From a virus, in the IMG/VR virus record IMGVR_UViG_3300047319_001872, positions 1-64,000 of that record: DNA of 64,000 nucleotides; one strand, given 5' to 3'. This document shows positions 25,673-49,980 of the stretch, in pieces. The position numbers and the translations under genes were made by a program. Position 1 is the first letter of the stretch. Every line of letters begins with the position of its first letter. The notes beneath the pieces are model-generated. The model was given only the letters and a program-made list of their open reading frames with translations, searched no databases and was not told where the DNA came from.

Positions 25673-26398
25673 TTATGCTCGCAAGAGAGACTCGATGCGC
25701 TCCACGCGATCCGCCGGATTCACGAGAGCAGACACCAGAGCATCTCCAAAGTACGACCCGGCGAGCTTGTTGGTCGTATTGGTCGCTGCGTACTGCACGG
25801 AGCGCAGCGGAATGAACGCAGGCTTCACGACCATGAGCTGGGAGAGGTCTTCGATCGTGGTCCGGTAGTACTGGTTGCGATCCTTCTCCGAGCGCGAGAT
25901 CATCGAAATGATCAGCTCCGTGACTTCCTGGTTGGCCCCGATATTGGCTCCGGCGTGATACAGCGCCGTGTCGAAGATTTTCCCGAGCTCCAGATAGCCC
26001 AAGTACCAAGGTACCCGGCCCTTCGAAATGATCTCGTCGTAGATTTTGTACACCAACACGTCGGTCTTCACCAGATCCGTGCTTGTGACCACGACGCTAC
26101 CCGCATCGAAGCTGAACTCGTAATACTCATCCCCGTCGATTTGCATCTTCAGGGTCGCCGTCGGTTCGATGGGCAACATGGCGTTCACCATGGAGACGCC
26201 ATAGTACACATCTTCTACGACAATCGCATAGACGCCCACAATGTAGGTTTCAATGCCGATCTGAGCGAGGCCCCGTTCTGCGAAGCGCACCGGAATATAG
26301 ATCTTCACCGGCTTCTTGCACACGAGGCTCCCGTTTGGAAGTTCTTCGAGGTAAGCCTGGACCCGTTTGGGATCGCGAATGAGTTTACTCACGTCCAT
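25673..26398 (-). CDS. Conserved phiKZ-like protein, 241 aa
   Basis: Starts MDVSKLIRDPKRVQAYLEEL with a GGGGTAAG box. Residues 30-120 form a beta-rich domain (KKPVKIYIPVRFAERGLAQI; TYIVGVYAIVVEDVYYGVS) and the rest is helical. No catalytic motif. It lies 20 bases upstream of the protease gene and 15 downstream of the 484-aa gene, so it is probably a phiKZ gp176-equivalent virion protein, judged from order only. Confidence 0.7.
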   Translation of the reverse strand: MDVSKLIRDPKRVQAYLEELPNGSLVCKKPVKIYIPVRFAERGLAQIGIETYIVGVYAIVVEDVYYGVSMVNAMLPIEPTATLKMQIDGDEYYEFSFDAGSVVVTSTDLVKTDVLVYKIYDEIISKGRVPWYLGYLELGKIFDTALYHAGANIGANQEVTELIISMISRSEKDRNQYYRTTIEDLSQLMVVKPAFIPLRSVQYAATNTTNKLAGSYFGDALVSALVNPADRVERIESLLRA

Positions 26399-26413: not shown

Positions 26414-27868
26414 TTAGATGGATTGCTTGAAACCCGCGTCGACCACTTGCAGCTGCGAGCCGACCCACCAGGCGACGTATTCGATCACCGAGATAGCGGC
26501 CGCTTCACGTACTTCGAGCGACGGGTTCTTCTTCTTGATGCGATCGATCCCAGCGAGGATACGCTCGGCTTCGGTCTTCGAGAAACGCGCGCGGCACACG
26601 AGCTTCAGGCCCAGCGTGTACAGGCATTCCAGATCCGACTCGACCACTTCGTCAAGCAGCTCATCGAACTTGGCCGTGGTGGCCGCGACGTCGAGGTTCG
26701 CGAGATCCTCATCGGCGAGCTCACGCAGCTGACGACGAAACACCGTCGAGAGCGCTTCCTTGGTGCGGGCGAACTTGCGGTTCGCTTCGACCGTGGCGGT
26801 CAAGGCTGCGTGGTTGTCCCACGCGCGCTTCAGCGTCCCGGCGTTCGCTTCGATGTCCTCGAGCATCACGTACGGGTTCGATTGCAGCAGATTGCCGAAG
26901 AGCACTTCGTTCTCGCCACCGTTCTCGATGTACTGCTTGTAGAGCTGCGGGTTGACGACGATCTCGTTGCTGCTCAGGCTGATCACCAGCGCGCCTGCCG
27001 ATTCGGCTTGCTCGTAAGCATTCAGTTCCCGGCACAGGAAGGCCGCGGCTTGATCGCGGAAGTCCGCCATCAGCGTTTCGTACTGCTGCAGGCTCATCGT
27101 GATCCCGTCGAGCGGGTTGTCGATCAGCTTGCGCGCCAGCAAGAAGATGATGAGTGCGTTGTCCACGCCACAGTCGGGCGAATTGAGCAGATCGACGAAG
27201 CGATGCACGCGTGCGTCGTTGATGTCGGCTTGACGTTGCTGGAAGGCTTTCGCCCACACGTCGATCAGGCAACCGTCACCCAGGGTGGCGGCAAACTGTT
27301 CGATGTCGGCATCAAGCGAAGCCGAACCGGTCTTCATCAGTTCGACGATTTCCGCGCCGGTTTGATCCGGCAGGTTGAAGTTCAGCGCCGGGGAATCCAG
27401 CGGCGTTTCTTCGAACTTGCGCACCATCGCATCGAATGCAGCATTCGTGAGCGGTGCGGGCAATTCGTCGATCCGCACTTCCATGCCGAGCAACTGGCTC
27501 GGGGTGTGCTGCGACAGAATGTCGGTCACGCGCGTGACCAGATCGTCGACGGCCGGAGCCACCACTTCCTTGGCGAACTTCACGTGCGACTGCACCGCCG
27601 GAATACAGACTTCGGCGATCTGGTCGAAGATGTTATCGTGATCCGAATCCCCAAAGACCGGATCTTTGATCGCCGCCGACGCCGCGAGTTGTTGCAGGTC
27701 GACCTTGATCGTTACGCCATCGTGCGAGGACGTGACGGTTTCGGGACTGCGGGTGCGGTTCACCAGCATTTCCAGCGGGGTGTCCGCACGCGGCAGCACC
27801 AGCAGCTTGCGCTGGTCGAAGCGCTCGGCCAACGGCAGCGCGCTCTCGAGGGCTTGAAGGCTCAGCAT
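26414..27868 (-). CDS. Conserved phiKZ-like protein, 484 aa
   Basis: Starts MLSLQALESALPLAERFDQR with a GGGAG box. Mostly helical, acidic and Leu-rich, with a middle segment (QYIENGGENEVLFGNLLQSN) preceding a coiled-coil-like stretch (AWDNHAALTATVEANRKFAR). No catalytic motif. Between the 241-aa gene and the 65-aa gene of the RNA polymerase block; the equivalent place in phiKZ is gp177. A virion role is likely but not shown by sequence. Confidence 0.7.
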   Translation of the reverse strand: MLSLQALESALPLAERFDQRKLLVLPRADTPLEMLVNRTRSPETVTSSHDGVTIKVDLQQLAASAAIKDPVFGDSDHDNIFDQIAEVCIPAVQSHVKFAKEVVAPAVDDLVTRVTDILSQHTPSQLLGMEVRIDELPAPLTNAAFDAMVRKFEETPLDSPALNFNLPDQTGAEIVELMKTGSASLDADIEQFAATLGDGCLIDVWAKAFQQRQADINDARVHRFVDLLNSPDCGVDNALIIFLLARKLIDNPLDGITMSLQQYETLMADFRDQAAAFLCRELNAYEQAESAGALVISLSSNEIVVNPQLYKQYIENGGENEVLFGNLLQSNPYVMLEDIEANAGTLKRAWDNHAALTATVEANRKFARTKEALSTVFRRQLRELADEDLANLDVAATTAKFDELLDEVVESDLECLYTLGLKLVCRARFSKTEAERILAGIDRIKKKNPSLEVREAAAISVIEYVAWWVGSQLQVVDAGFKQSI

Positions 27869-28159: not shown

Positions 28160-31100
28160 TTAGCTCTTGTAGGCAGCGACTGCTCGTTTAGCAATCACGT
28201 CCAGCAGGGTGGTAGTAGTGCCGATAATCGCAGGGCTATTCACAATACGATCGTAGACACTCTTGTAACCGAATACGCAGTCGATGACTGTGCCCGACTC
28301 CGTCTTCAGTTCGTTCTCCATCACCTTACCGAACACCGTCTTCATCTGGTTGGCAAACACACCCTTGTCGCCGACCCCTGCGCTCACATCAGCCGTGATG
28401 TAGATCTGAATCGCCACCGTATCCAACGCCAGTGGTTCTCCGTCGACCCGGAAGCCCTCATCGGTACTTCCCGTGAAGCCCTTTCGTCCAGCGGACTTAT
28501 GGCGCTTCGCCATCTCACGATCCGACATGTTCGTCAGTTGCCGCAGCGACTCCGACATGTCCTCTTTGTCCCCATGATAGAAGACTTCAATGCGCTCGAC
28601 CACGCCCTTGGTCTTGGAGAGCGGCACCTGAGCAGACAGATTGCGCAAGGTGTCCAGCGACTCCTCATCAAAGAGGTGATTGTTCGCGGTGACCGCGTCC
28701 TCGATTATGCATAAGATGTCCTCGCTGCCCACGCGCTGGCCGGTTTTCACCAACCGATGCACGGCTTGATCGAAGTTCACCACGATCTTACGCACCTTGG
28801 TGGTCTTCGTGGTCAAGAGACCCGACACCCGTTTGCTAATCGCCGAGGAGTCTTCCAGGGTATCGGTCGACTCCAACAGAACCGTTTTGACAATCGTCCC
28901 GGCCTTCCACACCACCTGATTCGGATTCAACGTATCACGCTCGAAGAAGCCGGTGTTGTGACACAAGAGGTCGCCTGCCTTAAACGTCTGTCCTTCCTGC
29001 ACGTCTGCCACCACTTCATGCGCGACAGTCAGACCGGCTGCGTTGCCATAACGCCGCCCCAGCTCGATGCCCTTGCGCGTGCCATCCGCATACTCGATCA
29101 CCATGCCGGTGTCCGAGACACTGATTACCTTGCCGTCCTTCTTGGCCGTGTAAGCGTAGAGGTCCGAGGTCCGGTGAGCCAGCACCTGTTCATACCCGGT
29201 GCGCACCGATGCTTGTGTGTAACCCGCGCAGGCAATCCCGTGAGAGTGTTGAATCCCCACGAAGTTCACCCGCTTCGCATCGTCGCGATCCGAGCCGGGC
29301 GACAAGAGAGCTGCCGTTGAGAGCAGTGCCGTCGCCCCTGTCACCCCGATCTCGTACGGATTAGACGTCCCGCGCAGCGAATTAAACTGCGGGTCCGCGG
29401 ACAGGTAGGTGTTGATGGCCACGTCCGAGCTGTCCTTCGTCGACTCGGAGATGGTCCCCATGTCGTTGCGATGGTACTGACGCGTGCGTTTAGTCATCGA
29501 GCGACTGCCTCGACCGCCGGTGCCCGAGAAGGTCACCGCTTCGACGTCCTTCAGGTTTTCCACCGGGTTGATGTCCGACACCTGGTTCTTCGCCGGGTCG
29601 GTCTGAATGGCCGTCCAGACTGCGTACGGGTTCAGATCGATCGGATGCTTGTTCTTGCCCGGACGCCCGTTATGAATCCGGATCGCCCGAATCAGTTCCG
29701 CATACACGGCACCCGCCATACGCTCGTAGCCCTTGATCCGCATGTACTTCGGATCGAGCTCATCCGGGTGAGTATCCGAGAGCAGCATCTCCACCGCGCG
29801 CACCAGCAGACCCTGGAAGGTCAGCGGCTCTTTCATGCCCTGCAAGATTTCCCGTGTGATCGGATCGATAAACATCTGGTACATCAAATCGATCTCACGC
29901 AGGTACCGCTCCGAACGCCCGTTGCCTTCGAGGATGTTCAGATAGACGCCGCGCCGATCAAACTCGAACACGCTGTAGTTACGGATCTGACGGTGGAACT
30001 CGTTAAAGCCCCCGAGGATCATCGCCGCAAAGGTGTTATCGCGCGGGAAGATCAACGTCTCGTCCGAGAATGCAATCGCGTACTCGTTATCTTGCAGGTT
30101 CAGGCGCTGACCGGCATTCACTCGACGCGCTGTGACTTTCAGCGCCCGCATGAGCTTTTCCAAGCCCAGTTGGTAGCCCAGCACCACGGCCAACGGAATC
30201 GTGCGACCCAGCACCTTCAGTTCAGCAAACTCGACCGGCGCCTTCTTCGACTCCAGATCAAGCAACTCTTCCAAAGGCGGGACTGCATCCCCCGTGACAA
30301 GACTGACACCGTCTTTAAGCGTCGCAAGGAAGAAGTCCCCCTCACGATCCATGACGATGTAGTCACCCCCTTCGGCCTGACCACACACCAAACGACCGTC
30401 CACTTCGAGCGCCTTGACCACGTCCGGCCCGTAGAGCTTGTCGCGCTTCGAGTGATCAAAGAGGAAGTTGAGCTTCTTCGGGAAGTGCGCCGAATCGACC
30501 GTGAATCCGCGGAAACCCATCGCCATCGAAGAATACAGACGCGGCGCTTCAAAGAGGTTGTCGAACACGTCACCCGGATGCAGATTCACCACCGTGGTGT
30601 TTTCGTTATCCAACCCCATGGCCATGATCGCATTACGCAGCCATTGCGCGCGATCATTCACGCGCTTCTCGCTGCGCGAGACAAACACCTTACCGTAGTA
30701 GGAGGTCAGTGCCACGCGGTCCGGGGCGATCTTACGGATCGGCATGTCACCCTTTTGCTTGCGGATGCGATAGCGCGTGCCGTTGGCCATGTAGGTGCCG
30801 TCGTCTTGCAACAGCGGCAGCTTAAAGTGCAGCGTCGAAGCCGTACCCTGGACCGGCACAATCCGTACGTGGTACATCACGTACGAACCCATCACGTCAT
30901 CCACCTCTTCACGCTCGTAGGACGTCACGCAGATGCCAGCATTTTGCAAGGCCAGCACCATACCTGCCACGTCCTTTTCCAACAGCGTCTCGATGTAGCG
31001 CTGATCGAATTCGAGCAACGACGATTTCAACATCGTCTTATCCAGCACCGTCGGAATGTCCTTGATGGCAGGGGACTTATCCATCTTGGTTTCGTGCGGC

Positions 31101-32698
31101 TGGACTTGCGAGAAGTCGTGCAGATTCCCTTCACCCTTGGGAGCGGGCAGGTTCTTGGGGGATTGGGCCAGTTGCGTGAAGCGGCGATACTCGGCTGCAC
31201 TCACCATGCCATCGTCCGCCAGGCGATTGAGCAAGGCAATCACACCGTCTTCCGGTTGCGGCACGTCGTTCAGCTCGACCACTTCCGCCGGGTGCGGAAT
31301 CTCACCCGAGCCCACTGCGACCGCTTGACGACTGAACTTATCGAGCTCTTGCAGATCCTTTTCAATCTGCGCGTCCTCAGTCGGGTCAAAGACAAAGTCC
31401 TCGGCCTTCTCCGTGGGGGTGAATTCATCGGTCGGCGTGGTCTTGACCGTGGTGGTCTTGACCGCGGTCGGCTTCAGAATCGCTTCGCCCGTAATCGGAT
31501 CGACCTTGGGCAGACTCCCCGTTTGCTTAAAGGTCGGCAAGAGACTCTCGTCTTCCTCGTCGCCCTTACCCGCATCGAACTGCTCATCGGGATCGTAGTG
31601 TTGCGCTTCCGGTACTCCATCAGCACTCGCATCTTGCGCGTCCGCTGCCTGGATCGACTCTTCGTCTTGGGCGGCGTCTTCGGCTTCCGGACCCACGTCG
31701 GTGCGTACTTGAAAGAGCGACATCGACATACGCAGCAAGCGACGCTGCATCTGCACTGGTGAGAGCCCCTTCTGATTCGCTTGCGGATTCGCCGCGAGCT
31801 CTTCCTCAGTGGCCACGCGCCAACGATTGATCACACCCAGGTTCACCACGAACCAGCGACCCGATTCCGTGAAGATCAGATTCACGCGATCCAGATGCTC
31901 ATCATTGACGTTGGCAATCAGCGAGCTATGACGCGCATCACCTGCCCACTTCCACAGCTCGAGCAGCATCAATGCTTCGGGCGTATGGAACACCTTGAGC
32001 GTGCGCTGGTTCATTGCTTCCAGCGCCATGCTATCGACGTAATGGGGCGAGGCTTGGACCAGGTCCAGATACTCCTGATCGACCGACTCGAGCGCCAGCT
32101 TGATGCCTTCGGTGGCGACGCTCAGCACGTCCCCCTCAATCAACGACTCCGAAGCAATGCGCAGATCCGTCAAACCGGGCAGAATCTTGGGCAGCCGGAT
32201 TTCGATGAACTGATGGCGGGTCGAGTCTTTGGCCAGATCACCAATACGCTTCCAGACGGTCGCCGCAATATTGTACCAGCGGTTGTACTCCGCGAACATT
32301 GAGCGCTGATAACGGTAGAGCCCTGCCAGGAAGCCGTAGTTCATCACGAACGGGACATTCACATCCCGCAGCGCGGCGCTCAGGTTGATCTGACGACGAA
32401 AGCGCCGATGATGCTGATGGTACTTGCGAATCTCCGTTTCCACCGGCACCGCGACGCGTCGCGGCATGCCCTTATCCGAGAGCAACTCGATCTGGTGCAT
32501 GATCGGGATGGGACGCGCCACATGCCGGAAGAGGAATTCATCCGAGCGCGGCCCGATGTCCACCGCGCTTTCACTCACGTAGTGAAAGATCGACTCGCGC
32601 GGCAACTCCAGCAAATCGAGCTTGGGCATGGGCGGGTTCGTCAACTGCGAAGCCGTGCGCACCCCAAAGCGTCGAAAAAAGTTGTTGTAGAAAATCAT
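28160..32698 (-). CDS. Phage RNA polymerase beta subunit, N-terminal and central part (to region H), 1512 aa
   Basis: DNA-directed RNA polymerase subunit of the phiKZ multisubunit kind. Residues 1-330 are phage-specific and helical; 330-530 is an acidic linker. Beta motifs follow: DDGTYMANGTRYRIRKQKGD, like the bacterial N-terminal lobe, then RGSRSMTKRTRQYHRNDMG, like region D, and finally VGDKGVFANQM (about residues 1442-1452), like the region H lysine element GDKMAGRHGNKG. The protein stops about 60 residues after that, so bacterial region I (the clamp-contact C-terminus) is missing. The gene at 49279 seems to supply it. Its ATG overlaps the stop of the beta-prime gene (ATGA). From its synteny with the protease and giant tail gene this is probably the virion polymerase, phiKZ gp178-like. 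Confidence 0.85.
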   Translation of the reverse strand: MIFYNNFFRRFGVRTASQLTNPPMPKLDLLELPRESIFHYVSESAVDIGPRSDEFLFRHVARPIPIMHQIELLSDKGMPRRVAVPVETEIRKYHQHHRRFRRQINLSAALRDVNVPFVMNYGFLAGLYRYQRSMFAEYNRWYNIAATVWKRIGDLAKDSTRHQFIEIRLPKILPGLTDLRIASESLIEGDVLSVATEGIKLALESVDQEYLDLVQASPHYVDSMALEAMNQRTLKVFHTPEALMLLELWKWAGDARHSSLIANVNDEHLDRVNLIFTESGRWFVVNLGVINRWRVATEEELAANPQANQKGLSPVQMQRRLLRMSMSLFQVRTDVGPEAEDAAQDEESIQAADAQDASADGVPEAQHYDPDEQFDAGKGDEEDESLLPTFKQTGSLPKVDPITGEAILKPTAVKTTTVKTTPTDEFTPTEKAEDFVFDPTEDAQIEKDLQELDKFSRQAVAVGSGEIPHPAEVVELNDVPQPEDGVIALLNRLADDGMVSAAEYRRFTQLAQSPKNLPAPKGEGNLHDFSQVQPHETKMDKSPAIKDIPTVLDKTMLKSSLLEFDQRYIETLLEKDVAGMVLALQNAGICVTSYEREEVDDVMGSYVMYHVRIVPVQGTASTLHFKLPLLQDDGTYMANGTRYRIRKQKGDMPIRKIAPDRVALTSYYGKVFVSRSEKRVNDRAQWLRNAIMAMGLDNENTTVVNLHPGDVFDNLFEAPRLYSSMAMGFRGFTVDSAHFPKKLNFLFDHSKRDKLYGPDVVKALEVDGRLVCGQAEGGDYIVMDREGDFFLATLKDGVSLVTGDAVPPLEELLDLESKKAPVEFAELKVLGRTIPLAVVLGYQLGLEKLMRALKVTARRVNAGQRLNLQDNEYAIAFSDETLIFPRDNTFAAMILGGFNEFHRQIRNYSVFEFDRRGVYLNILEGNGRSERYLREIDLMYQMFIDPITREILQGMKEPLTFQGLLVRAVEMLLSDTHPDELDPKYMRIKGYERMAGAVYAELIRAIRIHNGRPGKNKHPIDLNPYAVWTAIQTDPAKNQVSDINPVENLKDVEAVTFSGTGGRGSRSMTKRTRQYHRNDMGTISESTKDSSDVAINTYLSADPQFNSLRGTSNPYEIGVTGATALLSTAALLSPGSDRDDAKRVNFVGIQHSHGIACAGYTQASVRTGYEQVLAHRTSDLYAYTAKKDGKVISVSDTGMVIEYADGTRKGIELGRRYGNAAGLTVAHEVVADVQEGQTFKAGDLLCHNTGFFERDTLNPNQVVWKAGTIVKTVLLESTDTLEDSSAISKRVSGLLTTKTTKVRKIVVNFDQAVHRLVKTGQRVGSEDILCIIEDAVTANNHLFDEESLDTLRNLSAQVPLSKTKGVVERIEVFYHGDKEDMSESLRQLTNMSDREMAKRHKSAGRKGFTGSTDEGFRVDGEPLALDTVAIQIYITADVSAGVGDKGVFANQMKTVFGKVMENELKTESGTVIDCVFGYKSVYDRIVNSPAIIGTTTTLLDVIAKRAVAAYKS

Positions 32699-34323
32699 GA
32701 ATCGTAACCTGTCAGATTGTGGAACACCAAGGACACGGTCGAGACCTCGATACTGGACATGAAGGAGCCGTCGGTACCCACGTAGGCGCGCTTCTTACTC
32801 AGGTGTGCCTTGACTTCCGCGATGGATTCGTCCGAATACGTGACGTTACCCGAAGCAGTATCGCCGTCAAAGTCAGCGCCCAGTTTGCCGAGCTTGGCCG
32901 AGTGCGGCACCAGCGAGTTGATAAAGGCCCCGCCTGCAATCGGGAACTGATACGCCACGGGCGCATCCAGACGCAGATGCCATTGCTCGTCGAGCTCCTT
33001 GCGGACCTCAGCCTTAATCGTCGTCTTCACATAGGCGAGCGACGGATAGATCGAGCCTACCCCTGTCACCGGGTAGCGCGTCACAAAGAGCGGCAAGCCA
33101 TTAATCGCCTGGAAGGTCGACAGATACAGCAACTCACAGAAGGTGAGTGGCGTCACATCCTTGCGACTGCGATCAATCGGCACATCGCCGATGTCCTGGA
33201 AGATCTTGTAGGTCCCGTCCGGGCCCTTGTAAATCAGACCCAGGTAATACCCTTCAATCTCCAACGGTTTATGGCGCAGGTCTTCGTCACCAAAGGACGT
33301 GATCACCTTCTCGATGCCTTCGTTGGTCATCCAGCGATCGTAGCTTTGCGTCTTAAGCGTGACTTCAACCGGGCGCAGCGTCTTCTTGTCAATCAGCTTA
33401 ACGGGCCGACCTACTTCAAAGAACACCTTGGAGAGAAAGCCATTGCGAATGTTGTACATCGCAATCGGGCGTGCCGCTTTCAGCATCTGGTACAGGCCGA
33501 TCACGGTGTTATTAAAGCCCACCGCATCGGGTGCTCCCAGATAGGGACTGGAGGTATCCATCGCGGTAATCACGTTTCGCGTGCCGTCCTGAATCCGCCG
33601 TGACGCCCACTTACCCATCAGCAGCTTCTTCTTGCCCTGCACCATGTTTTCCAGCATGTCGTACAGCTGGTTAAAGGTGAGCTGCAAGTTGTAGCGTGCG
33701 GTGTTGATGACTTCCGGCGCGGTCTTGACCGACGCTTCGGAGATGGTGTTGGAGATCGCCAGCAGTTTGCGGTAAAAGGTGTTGATCTCATCCATCTGCA
33801 CCCGACCACCGTCAAGCTCCACGTCCCGCATCCCCGCAGGCATCACGATCACTTTGCTCGTCAGCGCCACGCTCTGGAACTTCTTCAAGAGCGACACATT
33901 CATTTCCCGTGTCACACTCTTGGTGTCACCGAATTCGATCAGCTTCCAGTATTCCAGAAAGAACGCGTAGCCGGTACGGCCGGTAATCGAATTGCTGCGC
34001 TCAAAGTCTTTGGTTTCGGGATTCCACACGGCGTACTCGGTGCCCGCCATGATCGCGGCATAGAGACGCTTGAGCTGGGCGAGTGCCCGATAGATCACCG
34101 GATGGAACACCGGGGCCTTGATGTCGACAAATGAAAAGCGCTGACTCCGGCGCTCATCCCCGACTTTGCCGAAGATGCTCACCGAGAAGAGTCCGCCTTC
34201 ATCGAAGTTGTGGGTCGCGCCATCGAAGATGTCCTGTTTCGTAACAGGCTTCACCCCCACGAGCTTTTTCTCCGTGAGTTCAAGGATACTCACGTTAAAT
34301 GGCACGTCGGATTTTTGCGGCAT
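32695..34323 (-). CDS. Phage RNA polymerase beta-prime subunit, N-terminal part with catalytic DFDGD, 542 aa
   Basis: Carries the catalytic magnesium site. Motifs in order: GLFSVSIFGK (N-terminal clamp), KKKLLMGKWASRRIQDGTRN, like the bacterial GKRVDYSGRSV element, TRYPVTGVGSIYPS, and LGADFDGDTASG with the three aspartates at about D484, D486 and D488. Bacterial beta-prime continues for several hundred more residues (trigger loop, bridge helix). This protein ends about 55 residues after the motif, so the C-terminal half must be another gene, as in phiKZ where gp180 is the N-terminal part and gp80 the C-terminal part. No candidate for it is in this window. Four-base ATGA overlap with the beta gene. 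Confidence 0.85.
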   Translation of the reverse strand: MPQKSDVPFNVSILELTEKKLVGVKPVTKQDIFDGATHNFDEGGLFSVSIFGKVGDERRSQRFSFVDIKAPVFHPVIYRALAQLKRLYAAIMAGTEYAVWNPETKDFERSNSITGRTGYAFFLEYWKLIEFGDTKSVTREMNVSLLKKFQSVALTSKVIVMPAGMRDVELDGGRVQMDEINTFYRKLLAISNTISEASVKTAPEVINTARYNLQLTFNQLYDMLENMVQGKKKLLMGKWASRRIQDGTRNVITAMDTSSPYLGAPDAVGFNNTVIGLYQMLKAARPIAMYNIRNGFLSKVFFEVGRPVKLIDKKTLRPVEVTLKTQSYDRWMTNEGIEKVITSFGDEDLRHKPLEIEGYYLGLIYKGPDGTYKIFQDIGDVPIDRSRKDVTPLTFCELLYLSTFQAINGLPLFVTRYPVTGVGSIYPSLAYVKTTIKAEVRKELDEQWHLRLDAPVAYQFPIAGGAFINSLVPHSAKLGKLGADFDGDTASGNVTYSDESIAEVKAHLSKKRAYVGTDGSFMSSIEVSTVSLVFHNLTGYDS

Positions 34324-34398
34324 ATCTTATCCTGCGGGTTTTAAGCCCAAACCTATGAGGGGCTCACGTGCAGCCCGACATCATTGGAGCCTGTGTTT

Positions 34399-37300
34399 AT
34401 GGCCAAGCAACAAAAATTCACGTTGAACGATTTCCAGTTCGACAAGAACCTTGACGTGCCTGATTTCGATTTCGATCTCAAGCCGCCGAAGGATAACCGC
34501 AAGCCGGTTACCAAAGTCGGTGCTGGCCTGAAAGAAGGCATCAGCATGTCGGCCAAGAACTCCGAGTTTATCAAGGGAGTCATTGAGAAAGCACTTCCTC
34601 GGGGATACGGCTCCGCGTATGATCTCGCCGAGAAATCGTTCGGATCGATAAAAAGTCTATACGATGATACGACCAAGGAAATCCGGCCGTTCATGAACGA
34701 CTTGAAGCGCACGACGGCACGCTTGCTCCCGAAGGTGGAGCAGGCGATGCCCGACAAGCTCAAGAAGCAAGTGAAGGACTGGACTGAGACGGCCGATGCC
34801 AAGCCGGGTACCTCGAACTATGATCCTCGCGAGGCCGAGATCAGTGCGATGCTCGCAGGCTTCGCCCAGGTGCAGTCCCAACTCCAATACAAACAAACCA
34901 CAGAATCAGACACTAAGGATCGACTCCGTGAAGGCCTCGAACAAGTCCGCCATCGGGACAAACTCAACCAGATGGATGCGCTTCGCGTTGGTATCACTCA
35001 GCTTGTGGATTACCAAGCCAACGTTACCGCTAACTACCATCGCAAGTCGCTCGAGCTCCAATACCGCCATTACTTCGTTGCTGTAGACGCGCTGGAAGAA
35101 GCCAAGCGCAGCAACGCCGAGATGCGACTGCTCTTGCAAAGCGTAGTGCACAATACCGCGCTGCCCGAGCAAGCCAAGCTTAAAGCGTCAGACACCTTCA
35201 AGGACATGGCCAAGCAACAGGCGATGAAGCTGATTGGTGGGACGATCCTCGGGCGCGGTCAAGAGTTCCTCGGCAACTTCACCAACAACTTGAAGAAGTC
35301 AGCCCTGCGTACGGTGAAGGGCGGCCTGGGTCATGGCCGCTCAGGGCTTGATATGTTAAACGGCGTCTTGGATGCCGATGACATGGCGCGTGCGATGGGC
35401 ATGCAGACCGACCCGTATCATGCTGGTGGGATGGTGGCTGGTGCGTTTGGCACGGGTATCATCGGCCAGTGGCTCGCTAAGAAGATGGCACCCCATCTGT
35501 CGAAGATGCCAGGGGTGAAGAAGTTCGGTAACAAGCTGCAGTATGGCGTGGAGAATATCCCGCAGATGCTCGGTGAGTGGGCCCGCTCCTCGAAGGGGGA
35601 GAATGGTGGCATTACTGACGGTCTGGTGCGTCTCTTGAAGATGAACGTCAAGAGTTCGCAGAAGATGCAGACGGGCTTGCAGAAGGATACTGTCGAAGGG
35701 ATGGGTGAGCCCTCGTACTTTAGCCGTCAGTCGGCCAAGTCGCTCAACGAGATCATCCCTGGTTACCTTGCGCGGATTCTGCGTGAGTTGCAGATCACAC
35801 GCACGGGTGATCCAAACGTCGAGATGACGCATTACGACTACACCAAGAACAAGTTCGACACGCAAAGCAATGTGCGCAAGAACGCGTTTAAGTCCCTGGT
35901 CAAGGATAACGAGCGTAAGTGGACGACTGACTCGGTCGATAGCCTGATCGATGAAGTTACCAGTAAGACCGGTAAGACGCTCACGCCGGAACAGAAGAAG
36001 ATTCTCGGCAGCCAACTCCTGCGTAACAATGTCAAGGGACGACTGGGCGGCGAAGAAGTGCTCGGTAACCGACGCCGTTACGATGGCGAGGCAGCGGATC
36101 ATGCCGATACCTTCTCTGATCTGTTCCGTTCGTACTTCCGTAACGATCACGAGAACGAGCGCAAGCATTCCTTTGCTAATCAGTACAACGCGCTCGGTCA
36201 GTACGCTTCGGCTTCCCGTGAAAAGGTGCAACACTTCTCTAACTTGGGCATGAACGACTTCTTGAATGAAGCGGGTCTGCTCAATGATGACGAAGATGGC
36301 GTGAAGCTTGAGCAGTTCTTCGACTACTATTACGGCAGTGACTTCCATCCGGCCGCGGGTAGCGCAGCGCAGGGTTTCCGTCAACAACCTGGTGGACAGC
36401 CCGGCTCAGCCGCAGCGGCAGTGGGTCCGCGCCGTCGGCGCCGTCGGGGTAATGCGGCGACCAAGGGTCGAGTCAATCGGGGTGGCGTGCATCAGGCACT
36501 GTCTCAGCTGGCCGCGGGTCCGGTGCCGTCCTTTGCCACACCTGGCCTGATTACACCGAGCCTGGTGCCGACGACGGCCGCGCCGGGCTTGTACAGTCAG
36601 CAACCGAGCGCTCAAGCAGGAACGCCGAAGTATAAGCAACAACTGGCGAACTATCTGCAAAAGCTCGGGGTGCCGACCCCGCAGATTGGTCAGCTGGTCG
36701 AACAAACCGTTGCCGCGATGAGTTCGAGCGCTCACTCGGCTGTCCAGGGTGTGGCAGGGTTGCACGCCGCAGGTAGTCAGCAGGCCGGTGGTTTCTTTAG
36801 CAATGCTCGCGATCATGCCCGTGAGTTCGCCAATCGGACAGCTTCCGGTGCCCGTGCCCTGCACGAGAATGCCAAGAACCACATCGAGACGTTGCTGGAG
36901 AAACTCTCCGAAGGCGTCAGCTCGATGAGTGACGGCATCAAAGCCATTCAGGAACGCTTCGCTGACGCGCTGCCAGTGATGGTGGTGGGTAATGCTGCGG
37001 ATGGTTCGATCCCGACGGGCGCAGCAGGTACGGGTCGCAAGGTGCGCTGGTGGAACAAGTCAATCAAGGACGGCGTCAAGAGCCTCGCGTCGGGTGCTTG
37101 GGGTGGTATGAAGGGCGCAGGCAAGCTGGGTAACTGGTTAGTCGGCAGCAGCTTCGGGGGCCTCTTCGGTACGGCTAAGGCTGTGGGTGGCATCGCCAGT
37201 GGCATCGCAGGCAAGGTGCTCGACAAGGCCCGTGGCTTTAAGGATGTGTATTCGGAAGAGACGGGCCCGCGTAAGGTCTTGCTCTATGGTGCACGCCTGA

Positions 37301-40300
37301 AGGCCGGAGAATATTTCGATGTCAAGACGGGCAAACCGGTCAAGACATGGCGGGACATTCAGGGTGCAGTGGCCGATGCCTCGGGCATTGTGATGACTGA
37401 AGAGCAGGCCTCGACCGCCTATGTGCGAGAAGGGCTCGGTAAGAAGGCCCTGAGGGGGCTGGGTGCCGGTATCAAGGTCGCCAGCAAGCTCGGTAGCTTC
37501 CTCGGTGGCAACCTCTTGGGCGGCCCTCTGGCGGGCTACAAAGCGATCGCTAAACTCGGTGAGCTGGCGATCAAAGGCGTGATGGGTTACGCCAATGGTC
37601 CGCAAGATGTCTACGTGTTCGATAAGGATCATCCGAAGCGACTGCGTAAGGCACTCGACGCGAAGACGATGCGCGCCGGTGGCTATCACTCGGCAGTCAA
37701 TGACAAACCGATCAAGAGTCCCAAAGACATTGATGGCGAAGTCTACAACTACAAGGGTGTGACGGTACTCGACGAAGAGGAATTCAAGCGCGGCCTGTAC
37801 GATAAGAACGGCAACCAGTTGAAGCACGGTATTGGTCGAATTCTGTCCGGGGCGACGAAGATTCTCGGCGGCGGCTTCGGCGCACTTAAGTGGTTGGCGG
37901 GGGGTGTGAACCAAGGCATCGGTCATGCGTTCGGTCTGGGCAAGGGCATGTTCAGCGGACTGGGTTCGCTCTTTGGCAAGACGGGGATTTTCTTTGGTGG
38001 CGGCAAGAAGCTGATGTCCGCCGTGGAAGAGATTCGTGACTTGCTCAAAGACCGGCTGCCTGCACAGCACAAAATCCGTAAGGGCTCGATCGAGGATCAG
38101 CACAAGTCGCGTAAGGAACAGCTCGAAGAGGAATGGAAGAAGCACCTGGGTCAGAGCGGTCAAGGTGAGGACGGCCAGAAGAAGGGCGGTATTCTCAGCC
38201 TGCTCAGCGGTCTGTTCAAACGCAAGAAAAAGAAGGACGATGACGAAGACGACTCCAAGGGCGGTCTGGTTGATGGGGTCGAGTCCGCAGTCGAACAAAC
38301 GATTGCTGATAAGCTCCTCGGCAAAATCCCTGGAGGCAAACTCCTGCGCAGGATTCCGGGTGTGGGGCGACTCTTCGGTAAGGGCGGCGCCAGTGCAGCA
38401 GCAGGCGCGGCTGAAAACATCGTCGGCAGTGCGGCTAAGCAAGGTCTCGGCGGCCGGATCATGGGTGGTCTGAAATGGGGCAAAGGCTTCGGTGCAGGCA
38501 TGGCGCTCACCGGCGCCTCGGCACTGGCTAATGCCACCGGGCACGATACCATTGGAAAGGGGTTGGGCTATGCAGGTGATGCTGCGACTGGGTGGTCTCT
38601 TGCTTCTGGGGCTGCTGGTCTACTCGGTGTTGAAGGTGGAGCATTGGGCCTTGCAGGCGCTGCAGGCGGGGCACTCCTTACTGGACTTGGGGCGGTGCTT
38701 GCTTCGCCTGTGCTCTTGCCTGCTCTGGGTATTGCAGCAGCTGGGGCTGCAGTGTACGGGGGCTACAAGCTCCTGACCCGGAACAAGCTCGACGATCTCT
38801 CGAAGATCCGGTACGCGCAGTACGGCTGGAAACCGGACGATGACGGCAACGTACACAAAGTGTTCGCACTGGAAAACGCCCTGATGCCGGGTGTCACGTA
38901 CGTGGGTGGTCAGGCGCAGATTGATCCGAAGAAGGTGGACATCAAGAGTGCAGTGGAAGGCCTCGGGGTGGATCTGAAGGATAAGGATCAGGTGCAGAAC
39001 TTCGCGACCTGGTACGTCCGTCGATTCAAGCCGGTGTTTATCACCCACTTGACCATCCTGAATAACGTCAAGAAGGGCACGGCTTTGTCGGATGCCAATG
39101 ACAAACTGTCAGCGGCTGAGAAGAAGACGTTCCTGCAAGGCATTCGCATGCCTGCGGACCCGTACAACTCGATGGTCTCGCCGATTCCGGGTGAGAAGCA
39201 ATTGAGTGCGGGGGCGGATGACGTGAAAGCGGTGATGGATGAAGTCCAGGCTGCCAACGATAAGGACGTCGAAAAGGATAAAGACAAGAAGACGAACGAG
39301 AAAGCAGACAAGGCCAAGGACAGCGCGAAGCACGACGCAGCCACCAAGGGCGATAACAAGCCTGAGCCGAGCTGGATGGATAATCTTAAGTCAGGTATCA
39401 GTAACGCTTGGGATAAGACCAAACAGTTTGCAGGCAATGCGTGGGATGCGACGAAGAATGTTGCCAGCTCCGTCGGCTCGGCGGCGTCTAGTCTCATCTC
39501 AGGCGCAGGCGATGCGCTGAAGTCTGGCTACCAGGCCGCGAAGGGGGCTGCGGGTAAGATTGGTGCCACGCTCACTGCTTCGGCCTCGGCGATTAAGGGT
39601 GCGTTGATTGCGGCGATGAAAACCGCAGGCATGAGTGACCCGACTGAGCAAGCGATGTTCATGGCGCAGATGGACCATGAGAGTGGTGGCTTTAAGTCAC
39701 TCTCGGAAAATCTGAACTATCGGCCCTCGGTGCTCGCGAGTCTCTTTAAGTCGCACTTTAATGGCGAAGGGGATGCTGCCAATGTGGCTGCTGGCGGTCC
39801 GCAAGCGATTGCGAATCGGATCTACGGTGGTCGCATGGGGAACACAGCGCCTGATGATGGCTGGACCTATCGGGGGCGCGGGGTCGTCCAGTTGACCGGT
39901 AAGGCCAACTACGCCAAGTACGGCAAGATGACGGGTTTGGATCTGGTGAACAATCCGGATCTCGCCTCTGACCCGGCTAATGCCGCTAAGATCGCACTGG
40001 CGTACTGGAAGGATCGGGTGTCTTCAGCGGCTGCGAAAGCAGGCGATGTGCTCTCGGTCACGAAAGCGATCAACGGTGGCACGAACGGGCTGAGCGATCG
40101 TCAGGCGAAGTTCCAGGCTTACCTCGGTCAGGCCCAGCAAGGCCAGCTCGGTGGCAAGCCGGACCCGAATGCGAAGCCGGGCGAGGCGGGTACCCAAGTT
40201 GCCTCGACGGGCAGTGCCCCGGCGACGGGTGGGGGAGATGCGACAGGTGGAGCAGCAGGCGGTATTATCAAGGTCGCGGATCAGACCCCTGGTCCGGCCC

Positions 40301-40704
40301 CGGCGCTGAAGTCCACCCCTGTGGTGAGCTCGGATGCAGCGCCCGCCGATACTGGCGCAAGCGCGGCAGTCAGTGCGCTGCCTGATTCCATCAATAGCCA
40401 AACCGCGGCTGCGATGGGGGGCTTCCAGAACCGCAGTAAGGATCTGGCGGCACAAAGCCAAGCCCAGTCGCAAGATCTGGCCAAAACACTCGGTCCGGTC
40501 TCCGATGTGCTTAAGCAATCGCTCGATGTCCAAAAGCAGATGCTAACGGCGTTGCAACAACTCGTGGGTTTCGCAGGTAAGCAAGGGAGTAATTCTCAAG
40601 CGAACGCGAAGACACCGACGGGCACGCTCTCGCCTGATGCTATGCAAAGGAAGACACCGCAGCCGATGACGTCTGCTCCGGTTTCCATGTCCAAAGTGGC
40701 TTAA
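34399..40704 (+). CDS. Giant tail protein with GH19-like peptidoglycan hydrolase domain, 2101 aa
   Basis: Size and place match phiKZ gp181 (2237 aa), the tail-associated cell-wall degrading protein next to RNA polymerase gp180. N-terminal 300 residues are charged and helical with coiled-coil character; residues 650-1400 include Gly/Ala-rich stretches that resemble membrane-active or tape-measure segments; residues 1390-1460 are hydrophobic Gly/Ala/Leu repeats. A chitinase/GH19-like lysozyme domain spans about 1735-1910: MAQMDHESGGFKSLSENLNY with the catalytic glutamate near 1761, then DDGWTYRGRGVVQLTGKANY and later AKIALAYWKDRV. The C-terminus is Ala/Pro/Gln rich. The start at 34399 has a GGAG box; the in-frame TTG at 34384 is rejected. 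Likely injected with, or forms, the tail tape measure and opens the wall. Confidence 0.85.
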   Translation: MAKQQKFTLNDFQFDKNLDVPDFDFDLKPPKDNRKPVTKVGAGLKEGISMSAKNSEFIKGVIEKALPRGYGSAYDLAEKSFGSIKSLYDDTTKEIRPFMNDLKRTTARLLPKVEQAMPDKLKKQVKDWTETADAKPGTSNYDPREAEISAMLAGFAQVQSQLQYKQTTESDTKDRLREGLEQVRHRDKLNQMDALRVGITQLVDYQANVTANYHRKSLELQYRHYFVAVDALEEAKRSNAEMRLLLQSVVHNTALPEQAKLKASDTFKDMAKQQAMKLIGGTILGRGQEFLGNFTNNLKKSALRTVKGGLGHGRSGLDMLNGVLDADDMARAMGMQTDPYHAGGMVAGAFGTGIIGQWLAKKMAPHLSKMPGVKKFGNKLQYGVENIPQMLGEWARSSKGENGGITDGLVRLLKMNVKSSQKMQTGLQKDTVEGMGEPSYFSRQSAKSLNEIIPGYLARILRELQITRTGDPNVEMTHYDYTKNKFDTQSNVRKNAFKSLVKDNERKWTTDSVDSLIDEVTSKTGKTLTPEQKKILGSQLLRNNVKGRLGGEEVLGNRRRYDGEAADHADTFSDLFRSYFRNDHENERKHSFANQYNALGQYASASREKVQHFSNLGMNDFLNEAGLLNDDEDGVKLEQFFDYYYGSDFHPAAGSAAQGFRQQPGGQPGSAAAAVGPRRRRRRGNAATKGRVNRGGVHQALSQLAAGPVPSFATPGLITPSLVPTTAAPGLYSQQPSAQAGTPKYKQQLANYLQKLGVPTPQIGQLVEQTVAAMSSSAHSAVQGVAGLHAAGSQQAGGFFSNARDHAREFANRTASGARALHENAKNHIETLLEKLSEGVSSMSDGIKAIQERFADALPVMVVGNAADGSIPTGAAGTGRKVRWWNKSIKDGVKSLASGAWGGMKGAGKLGNWLVGSSFGGLFGTAKAVGGIASGIAGKVLDKARGFKDVYSEETGPRKVLLYGARLKAGEYFDVKTGKPVKTWRDIQGAVADASGIVMTEEQASTAYVREGLGKKALRGLGAGIKVASKLGSFLGGNLLGGPLAGYKAIAKLGELAIKGVMGYANGPQDVYVFDKDHPKRLRKALDAKTMRAGGYHSAVNDKPIKSPKDIDGEVYNYKGVTVLDEEEFKRGLYDKNGNQLKHGIGRILSGATKILGGGFGALKWLAGGVNQGIGHAFGLGKGMFSGLGSLFGKTGIFFGGGKKLMSAVEEIRDLLKDRLPAQHKIRKGSIEDQHKSRKEQLEEEWKKHLGQSGQGEDGQKKGGILSLLSGLFKRKKKKDDDEDDSKGGLVDGVESAVEQTIADKLLGKIPGGKLLRRIPGVGRLFGKGGASAAAGAAENIVGSAAKQGLGGRIMGGLKWGKGFGAGMALTGASALANATGHDTIGKGLGYAGDAATGWSLASGAAGLLGVEGGALGLAGAAGGALLTGLGAVLASPVLLPALGIAAAGAAVYGGYKLLTRNKLDDLSKIRYAQYGWKPDDDGNVHKVFALENALMPGVTYVGGQAQIDPKKVDIKSAVEGLGVDLKDKDQVQNFATWYVRRFKPVFITHLTILNNVKKGTALSDANDKLSAAEKKTFLQGIRMPADPYNSMVSPIPGEKQLSAGADDVKAVMDEVQAANDKDVEKDKDKKTNEKADKAKDSAKHDAATKGDNKPEPSWMDNLKSGISNAWDKTKQFAGNAWDATKNVASSVGSAASSLISGAGDALKSGYQAAKGAAGKIGATLTASASAIKGALIAAMKTAGMSDPTEQAMFMAQMDHESGGFKSLSENLNYRPSVLASLFKSHFNGEGDAANVAAGGPQAIANRIYGGRMGNTAPDDGWTYRGRGVVQLTGKANYAKYGKMTGLDLVNNPDLASDPANAAKIALAYWKDRVSSAAAKAGDVLSVTKAINGGTNGLSDRQAKFQAYLGQAQQGQLGGKPDPNAKPGEAGTQVASTGSAPATGGGDATGGAAGGIIKVADQTPGPAPALKSTPVVSSDAAPADTGASAAVSALPDSINSQTAAAMGGFQNRSKDLAAQSQAQSQDLAKTLGPVSDVLKQSLDVQKQMLTALQQLVGFAGKQGSNSQANAKTPTGTLSPDAMQRKTPQPMTSAPVSMSKVA

Positions 40705-40749: not shown

Positions 40750-42861
40750 GTGGCTTCAACAGTCTCGCTGAACAATCTTGAAAAAGACGCGTCCTGGGTG
40801 CGGCAGTCTTTTCTGGTGAACCTGTCTCACCTGCAGCCGGTGGATCAGCAAAACCGGATCTTCACACCGGTGAGTCTGGACTTTCAGGACACCCGTCCGG
40901 GTGGGAGTTTGTGTATCAATCCGCCCCCGCAGTTTACCCGCAACGCGGATCTGAAACCACGCGCGCCGAATGGGAGTTGGAACCCCAACCAGGTCAATCG
41001 GGCTGGGAATACCGGCTATGGTCGCTACTACGGGGAAGCGATCGCGGCGAACTCACAGATCATCAATATCCGCTGTGGCTTGCCTTCGTTCAATTCACTG
41101 ACGACCTTCTTCACCGGCTTCTATAACACCAGTGCCGGTACGCTGGCGCGTACCGGTCGCGCACCGTCGGCGTTTTATGAGCTGGGGCGTGCCGCTGGTT
41201 TTGTGGTCTCGATCCTGTCATGGAAGTTGCTGGCAGTCACGCTCCTCGGTAACGCGGCGCGCTTCTTTCTGCAAAAGCCCTCGAGTAAGTTCTACTACTC
41301 GAAGCCCGCCATGCCGCTTTACTGGAATGCGGTGACCACCATCGTCAACCAGATTGCAGTGAACATGGGGATTGTGCCGCGCATTGGCGGCACTTCGATG
41401 GCCCAGCAGTTGGGCGAAGGCTATCAGTTCGACGCCAAGGCCCAGACGCAACTGCATCAGCTCTTGCCCGACATCATCAACGAAGGCGGTTCGATTAACG
41501 TCTACGCGATGGCTAACCGGGCGCAACGTCTGGCCACCCTGCATCAGAACAACCTGAAGCAGGCGTTTAATACCGATAACCTCGATCTGACGAGCGCAGT
41601 GCAGAAGGCGTATAGCCAGTCGCTGAAAGATAACGGCGGCACAGGCTGGAGTGATTACCTGAAGAAATGGCTGGGCTCCTCTCAGGCCATCCCCCAAGCG
41701 GCGGGTAACGGCGGCGAGAGTTCGACCACGGAGTCGCTCAATAACGACGACACGGGGACGACTGCGCCCAATCAGGCCTACGATGCGGGCTTCTTTGATT
41801 TTCTCGGTGCAGAGATCAATGACGGGTCGGCTTTTGTCGGCTTCCGGGTCAACGCAACCGGGCCGGTGGGTGAGTCGTTTTCCAGCCAAGCCCAGGAATC
41901 AGAAATTGCGCAGAAGATCAATAGCATCTCCTCCCAGGCGCGATCGGCGGAGTTTGATCTGGCCAATGGTAATCTGGGCGGCGGTGCCATCGGTAGCATG
42001 GTCACCAGTGCCTTCGGGGCCGTGGGGAATTTCATCAAGGGCGGGCTGGACTCCCTACACTTGTCCGGCTTGGCAGCCCTGGGCGGGGCCGCGTTCGTGG
42101 ACATCCCGCGTTCCTGGCAGTCCTCGGCTGCGTCCTTGCCGCGGATGAGCTACACCATCAACCTGGTGAGCCCGTACGGTAATCGCGTCTCGCAGCTACT
42201 GAATCTGTACGTGCCGCTCGCGATGCTGTTGGCGATGACCTTGCCGATTGCGACGGGTAAGCAGTCGTACACCAGTCCGTTCCTGTGCGAGATCTTTGAC
42301 CGGGGTCGCTGCCAGTCGCGTTTGTCCATGGTGGAGAGCTTGTCCATTACCCGCGGTACGGGTAACACGGGCTTTAACAACAAGGGCCACGCGATGGGCA
42401 TTGAAGTGAGCATTACGTTCATGGACATGTCCACCGTGCTGGCGATGCCGATCAGTCAGGGTTTCTCCTCCAATGCCACAGCAGCAGGCAGTGAACTGGG
42501 CGCGGTCGCAGGAGGCGTGGTGGGTGCAGGCGGTGGTCCGCTGACTGCGATCGGAGGTGCAGCACTCGGCGGAGCAATTGGTGGCGCGCTCGGCGCAGGT
42601 GCCGATGCCTTGAACAATGCCGCGCAAACCATCGGCTCGATCTTCGACGATGACAATACCTTCACGGATTACATGGCAGTGTTGTCAGGCATGGGTCTCA
42701 CGGACCAGATTTACTCGATGAACAAGTTCAAGCTTAACTTGACGCGCGCCATGACAAGCTGGAAGACCTGGTATAGCACGGCGCACTTTGCCAGCTTTGC
42801 CGGGGATACCCTGCCGGGCAGTTTAGTCTCCGCGATCTTTGGTCGCACCGTCCGTAACTAA
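40750..42861 (+). CDS. Virion protein with hydrophobic Gly/Ala segments, 703 aa
   Basis: GTG start at 40750 with an AGGAG box 8 bases upstream; no ATG is better placed. Residues 1-130 are beta-like. Residues about 150-190 (AAGFVVSILSWKLLAVTLLG) and 500-515 (LAMLLAMTLPIA) are hydrophobic. Residues 560-620 form a Gly/Ala run (GAVAGGVVGAGGGPLTAIGG), a pattern common in tail tape or ejection proteins. Follows the giant hydrolase directly, like phiKZ gp182 follows gp181. Probably part of the tail or the ejected apparatus; function inferred only from place. Confidence 0.75.
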   Translation: MASTVSLNNLEKDASWVRQSFLVNLSHLQPVDQQNRIFTPVSLDFQDTRPGGSLCINPPPQFTRNADLKPRAPNGSWNPNQVNRAGNTGYGRYYGEAIAANSQIINIRCGLPSFNSLTTFFTGFYNTSAGTLARTGRAPSAFYELGRAAGFVVSILSWKLLAVTLLGNAARFFLQKPSSKFYYSKPAMPLYWNAVTTIVNQIAVNMGIVPRIGGTSMAQQLGEGYQFDAKAQTQLHQLLPDIINEGGSINVYAMANRAQRLATLHQNNLKQAFNTDNLDLTSAVQKAYSQSLKDNGGTGWSDYLKKWLGSSQAIPQAAGNGGESSTTESLNNDDTGTTAPNQAYDAGFFDFLGAEINDGSAFVGFRVNATGPVGESFSSQAQESEIAQKINSISSQARSAEFDLANGNLGGGAIGSMVTSAFGAVGNFIKGGLDSLHLSGLAALGGAAFVDIPRSWQSSAASLPRMSYTINLVSPYGNRVSQLLNLYVPLAMLLAMTLPIATGKQSYTSPFLCEIFDRGRCQSRLSMVESLSITRGTGNTGFNNKGHAMGIEVSITFMDMSTVLAMPISQGFSSNATAAGSELGAVAGGVVGAGGGPLTAIGGAALGGAIGGALGAGADALNNAAQTIGSIFDDDNTFTDYMAVLSGMGLTDQIYSMNKFKLNLTRAMTSWKTWYSTAHFASFAGDTLPGSLVSAIFGRTVRN

Positions 42862-49278: not shown

Positions 49279-49980
49279 TTAATTAAGCCCAGTGTTACTG
49301 AGATGCATGCAGGTCAGAATGATGGACAGCGTCTGCGTCGACTTCACCTGGGTGCCCAGCTTCTCGATCGACTTGAGCGACACGCCGCCAGTTTTGCTGA
49401 TAGCGGAATTGAGCGCATCAAAGCCTTTCTCATCCCCGCCTCGATACTTAAGCATCTCGGTGAGGTTAGCGTCCAGGTTAAGGGCGGCCATGATCTGGGT
49501 CTCCGGATAGGAGATCTTCGATCCCTTGGACTTCCCGGTCGGCTGGCCTGTGAAATCGTCCACGGACTTAGAGTCTTCAGGAATCGAGATCTTCTTGACC
49601 AGCAACTGCGCTTGACGGCGCAGGGGGAGATCAACCACCAGGTACGGAATCGGTGACAGATACGGTGGAATATCGTTGCCATTGTCGATCCAGATCCTTT
49701 CAAAGAAGTTGTGACCGAGTTCATCAGCCAGCTTCAGGTTCCGTTCGATGTCAAGACGCACGAGCTTCTTGTCACCACCCGTGGGGTGCTCGGCCAAATT
49801 CGGCGCGATCACCGCGAGTCGAATCTCCTGCCGCTCGAGCTTTTCCATCCATACGGCAAACGCCGCGTCGTCCATGCTGGCAAAGAGGTTGCGGTAAATG
49901 TCGGTGTTACCCGACTCGGGGATCAACTTCTCGATCCATTCGTAGATAACCGCTTCAGCAGCTGCTCGGTTTCCTGCCAT
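49279..49980 (-). CDS. Phage RNA polymerase beta subunit, C-terminal piece (region I), 233 aa
   Basis: Not annotated by obvious size, but its second half matches the end of bacterial beta. TGQPTGKSKGSKISYPETQI followed by MAALNLDANLTEMLK parallels E. coli [20 protein letters not shown] and [20 protein letters not shown], with the same spacing. The preceding PYLSPIPYLVVDLPLRRQAQ parallels the VTVGYMYMLKLNHL strands. The 1512-aa beta protein at 28160 stops just before this region, so the two together reconstitute one beta subunit. phiKZ polymerases are known to split beta at a C-terminal point (gp149 in the virion enzyme). Good AGGAAAAC box; overlaps the next upstream gene by 58 bases. Confidence 0.7.
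   Translation of the reverse strand: MAGNRAAAEAVIYEWIEKLIPESGNTDIYRNLFASMDDAAFAVWMEKLERQEIRLAVIAPNLAEHPTGGDKKLVRLDIERNLKLADELGHNFFERIWIDNGNDIPPYLSPIPYLVVDLPLRRQAQLLVKKISIPEDSKSVDDFTGQPTGKSKGSKISYPETQIMAALNLDANLTEMLKYRGGDEKGFDALNSAISKTGGVSLKSIEKLGTQVKSTQTLSIILTCMHLSNTGLN

Follow-up and report, generated by a model that had tools for sequence, protein, structure and literature searches.

The virion RNA polymerase (vRNAP) of phages related to phiKZ has a core of five polypeptides, the N-terminal and C-terminal pieces of beta among them (PMC7598289). In SPN3US these pieces are gp241 and the smaller gp218, respectively (PMC5105663). Particles of a SPN3US 218 amber mutant look intact but are non-viable and contain none of the five vRNAP subunits, indicating that vRNAP assembles before packaging (PMC5694885). 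In phiKZ, tagged gp180 co-precipitates gp149, gp178 and gp80 (PMC10612078), and gp149/gp218 orthologues are present in the virions of both phiKZ and SPN3US (PMC10612078, PMC5694885). In phage RAY, vRNAP beta subunit 2 is gp154, which localises with capsids (PMC10299810). The split beta subunit is thus established knowledge, and the gene described here, found in a 64,000-nucleotide stretch of an uncultured phage genome (the window), is a fresh orthologue of a known part.

A 233-residue orthologue of gp149 and gp218

The open reading frame begins with ATG, a start backed by relatives opening with M-x-G-N-R-K-A-A-E, and its 233-aa product carries TGQPTGKSKGSKISYPETQI and MAALNLDANLTEMLK, both of the motifs named in a preliminary description made from the sequence alone. 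Residues 1-230 match phrog_3233, 'RNA polymerase beta subunit' (E 1.6e-76). A translated search with the protein gave matches in 276 phage records, with at least 80% of the protein covered in 273 of them, and K130, Q146, E160, E175 and the GGD at 181-183 are each kept in at least 99% of 73 aligned family members. The homology to the phiKZ-type vRNAP beta-C (phrog_3233, gp149/gp218) is full-length, and we are almost certain that the protein is the beta-C of the vRNAP of a phiKZ-related jumbo phage.

Comparison with individual relatives points the same way. The protein that the preliminary description had named for comparison, phiKZ gp149 (224 aa), is homologous over its whole length (40% identity, E 3e-53), has the same role as a separate beta-C and lies on the same strand as gp178; apart from sequence divergence, the window protein differs from it only by a 9-residue insertion near residue 65. 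SPN3US gp218 (222 aa), from another phage genus, is more diverged (30% identity, E 6e-30); it is named beta-C, is a head protein ejected from the virion and is essential by its amber mutant. The closest relative, gp52 of Burkholderia phage FLC9 (LC667451), is 88% identical, with the same order of surrounding genes, and is labelled only as a hypothetical protein. The preliminary description called this piece of beta hidden, which it is not: for years the family has carried the name vRNAP beta-C, PHROG 3233 bears a beta-subunit name, and an amber mutant exists for the SPN3US orthologue.

Two features of the gene itself may be added. The insertion (window 49762-49788, about residues 65-73) is absent from most relatives. 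The first 58 bases of beta-C (window 49923-49980) are shared with the end of the gene upstream, an overlap of 34 bases in FLC9 and 4 in RAY, and translational coupling is possible; that gene belongs to phrog_289, 'GTP-binding domain', and is DprA-like in RAY.

All five vRNAP pieces are present in the 313,315 bp genome (Table 1). The role of beta'-C is taken from PMC5105663, and beta'-M, missed by a search with Pfam PF04998, was recovered with the phiKZ protein as query. The window beta'-N is a single open reading frame through DFDGD, whereas the annotated phiKZ gp180 ends at LGAD beside gene 179. Introns and a homing nuclease appear in the vRNAP scheme of PMC5105663, and the window phage seems to be without the interruption found in phiKZ gp180.

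Table 1. Polymerase genes of the window phage (window coordinates unless marked as genome; nvRNAP, non-virion RNA polymerase).
Feature	Coordinates	Strand	Basis
vRNAP beta-C, 233 aa (phiKZ gp149 / SPN3US gp218 orthologue)	49279-49980	-	phrog_3233 E 1.6e-76; gp149 40% E 3e-53; gp218 30% E 6e-30; hhalign P 1.2e-5
vRNAP beta-N, 1512 aa (phiKZ gp178 orthologue)	28160-32698	-	phrog_3148 E 0; BLASTP gp178 33% E 0
vRNAP beta'-N, 542 aa, DFDGD motif (phiKZ gp180 orthologue)	32695-34323	-	phrog_2986 E 3e-201; gp180 37% E 3e-111; motif read directly
vRNAP beta'-C, 241 aa (phiKZ gp176 / SPN3US gp244 orthologue)	25673-26398	-	phrog_2926 E 7e-88; gp176 44% E 1e-73
vRNAP beta'-M	genome 267977-269341		found with phiKZ gp80
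nvRNAP beta-C, 766 aa	genome 280925-283072
nvRNAP beta'-N	genome 293113-294519

Region I and the position of the split

Direct HMMER searches gave no match of the 233-aa protein to Pfam region-I models or to PDB sequences. A search of the genome with RNA_pol_Rpb2_7 (PF04560), at E up to 10, also returned zero matches; this model is too remote for phage sequences this diverged, since it misses the known nvRNAP beta-C as well. Comparing a profile of 73 family members with one of 27 proteobacterial beta C-ends using hhalign, a check of the kind that the preliminary description had proposed, gave a collinear match of 167 columns (probability 80.9%, P 1.2e-5, score 43.7), aligning beta-C residues 10-197 with approximately E. 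coli beta 1139-1311. The score reached at most 26.0 in 200 trials with column-shuffled bacterial profiles and at most 18.0 against 20 windows of rpoB-N and rpoC. With only 36 close relatives P was 0.025, and it fell to 1.2e-5 on adding diverged members. Judged by these profiles, the region-I-like resemblance exceeds chance, and homology to bacterial beta spans most of the protein, beyond region I alone.

In the alignment, read by eye with numbering anchored on K1065, the conserved phage residues K130, Q146, E160 and E175 pair with bacterial K1242, Q1257, E1274 and E1289, which are conserved as well. The preliminary description had reported the same spacing of motifs as in bacteria; this holds for E160 to E175, 15 residues apart like bacterial MEVW and QEML, while Q146 to E160 spans 14 residues in the phage protein against 17 in bacteria, its loop being 3 shorter, so that the agreement is approximate.

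A structure model of beta-C from 54 sequences has modest confidence, with a pLDDT of 71.5 and a pTM of 0.39, an earlier one from 36 sequences having been poor (pLDDT 62.5). Among the 50 best PDB matches listed by Foldseek for this modest-confidence model, 49 are cellular RNA polymerase, nearly all of them beta chains, the best E-value being 0.068 and none significant singly. Beta of T. thermophilus superposes on the model over 100 columns at 3.0 Å.

The other side of the split is seen in beta-N, where VGDKGVFANQM sits about 60 residues short of the C-terminus and nothing resembling region I was found in the residues past it, as the preliminary description had stated. Across 50 aligned beta-N ends, K1445, K1453 and R1484 do not vary. 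The two lysines, the pair of region H, match K1065 and K1073 of E. coli beta, both pairs being 8 apart, and R1484 matches R1106; the roles of these E. coli residues are those we take from general knowledge of the enzyme. The hhalign signal of the beta-N end alone is weak (P 0.003); its match to bacterial beta is drawn from the invariant residues together with gp178 orthology. Loss of one catalytic lysine in beta-N was considered and dropped, both lysines being 100% conserved in the 50 relatives and matching their E. coli counterparts.

Beta-N stops at about E. coli beta 1134 and beta-C, corresponding to about 1130-1342, starts at about 1130, so that beta is covered by the two chains without a gap. 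The aligned sequences place the split directly after region H, about 100 residues ahead of region I, at approximately E. coli beta 1130-1139. One beta divided between regions H and I, as originally proposed, agrees with published work (PMC7598289, PMC5105663, PMC5694885), and the comparisons of profiles and of the modest-confidence model fit it too.

Alternative assignments

Besides vRNAP the genome has genes for another multisubunit polymerase, nvRNAP, and region I is needed by both enzymes, so the 233-aa protein might be considered the beta C-terminus of nvRNAP instead of vRNAP. We give this next to no chance. The nvRNAP beta-C (phiKZ gp71-73) already has its own regions H and I, with an hhalign probability of 93.6% (P 2e-7) against bacterial beta, and the 233-aa protein has orthologues that belong to the virion and co-purify with vRNAP (PMC5694885, PMC10612078). 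Like the vRNAP beta-C, that of nvRNAP is a separate C-terminal piece with region I; it differs in being split upstream of region H and in belonging to a second, unpackaged polymerase, consistent with the differing beta split sites of the two enzymes (PMC7598289). Comparison by hhalign of the beta-C family with the single nvRNAP beta-C sequence detected no homology, and there is therefore no direct signal of kinship between vRNAP and nvRNAP in region I. The expectation that no other gene would carry region I thus needs amending, as one does; it leaves the gap of beta-N unfilled, because it is the gene of the second polymerase and carries region H as well.

The labels 'structural head protein' and 'virion structural protein', given to the family in phiKZ and several other records, would fit a head protein whose region-I-like motifs arose by chance. 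Against it, the collinear match of 167 columns scores above both nulls, the fold of the modest-confidence model matches almost only cellular RNA polymerase, and a packaged polymerase is expected in the head anyway; we therefore hold this reading to be very improbable.

Arrangement of the genes and implications

In the window, beta-N and beta-C are separated by 16.6 kb, in line with the 16 kb first estimated. Two large plus-strand genes (34384-40704 and 40750-42861) lie inside this gap, and it is therefore fair to place beta-N and beta-C in separate transcription units, as had been suggested. The first of these genes encodes a 2106-aa protein (phrog_3201, phrog_181), tail-fibre-like in its N part and endolysin-like in its C part, and occupies the position of phiKZ gp181. 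Between beta-N and beta'-C, a 484-aa protein of phrog_3841, with no assigned function (26414-27868), takes the place that the head protein gp177 has in phiKZ. Beta-C and the beta-N end are on the same strand and about 20-26 kb apart in all 16 examined uncultured contigs that hold both genes (positions approximate, to about 2 kb), and gp149 and gp178 are about 27 kb apart in phiKZ. Together with the gene order shared with FLC9, this makes the separation inherited, not peculiar to the window phage.

For the window phage, homology, tiling and a full set of five pieces are established. In cellular enzymes, region I lies against beta' close to the active centre. Beta-C supplies the last part of beta, made up of region I and the linker that follows region H, and would join beta-N, beta'-N, beta'-M and beta'-C in one five-subunit core without covalent linkage. 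This core would be packed into the head, ejected with the DNA and transcribe early genes. The virion location of beta-C, its co-purification and the dependence of the other subunits on it for their packaging, seen in relatives, can by analogy be expected in the window phage. We also consider, as a rather unlikely idea, that the H/I split, with beta-C some 20 kb away, may aid disassembly of vRNAP for passage through the tail tube and reassembly in the host, and would then have been selected instead of being an intron relic.

With the window gene, a known packaged polymerase gains an orthologue from an uncultured phage, and the placement of the vRNAP beta split near E. coli beta 1130-1139 has statistical backing. 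A subunit essential in SPN3US is still labelled hypothetical in many genome records, including that of the nearest relative, FLC9.
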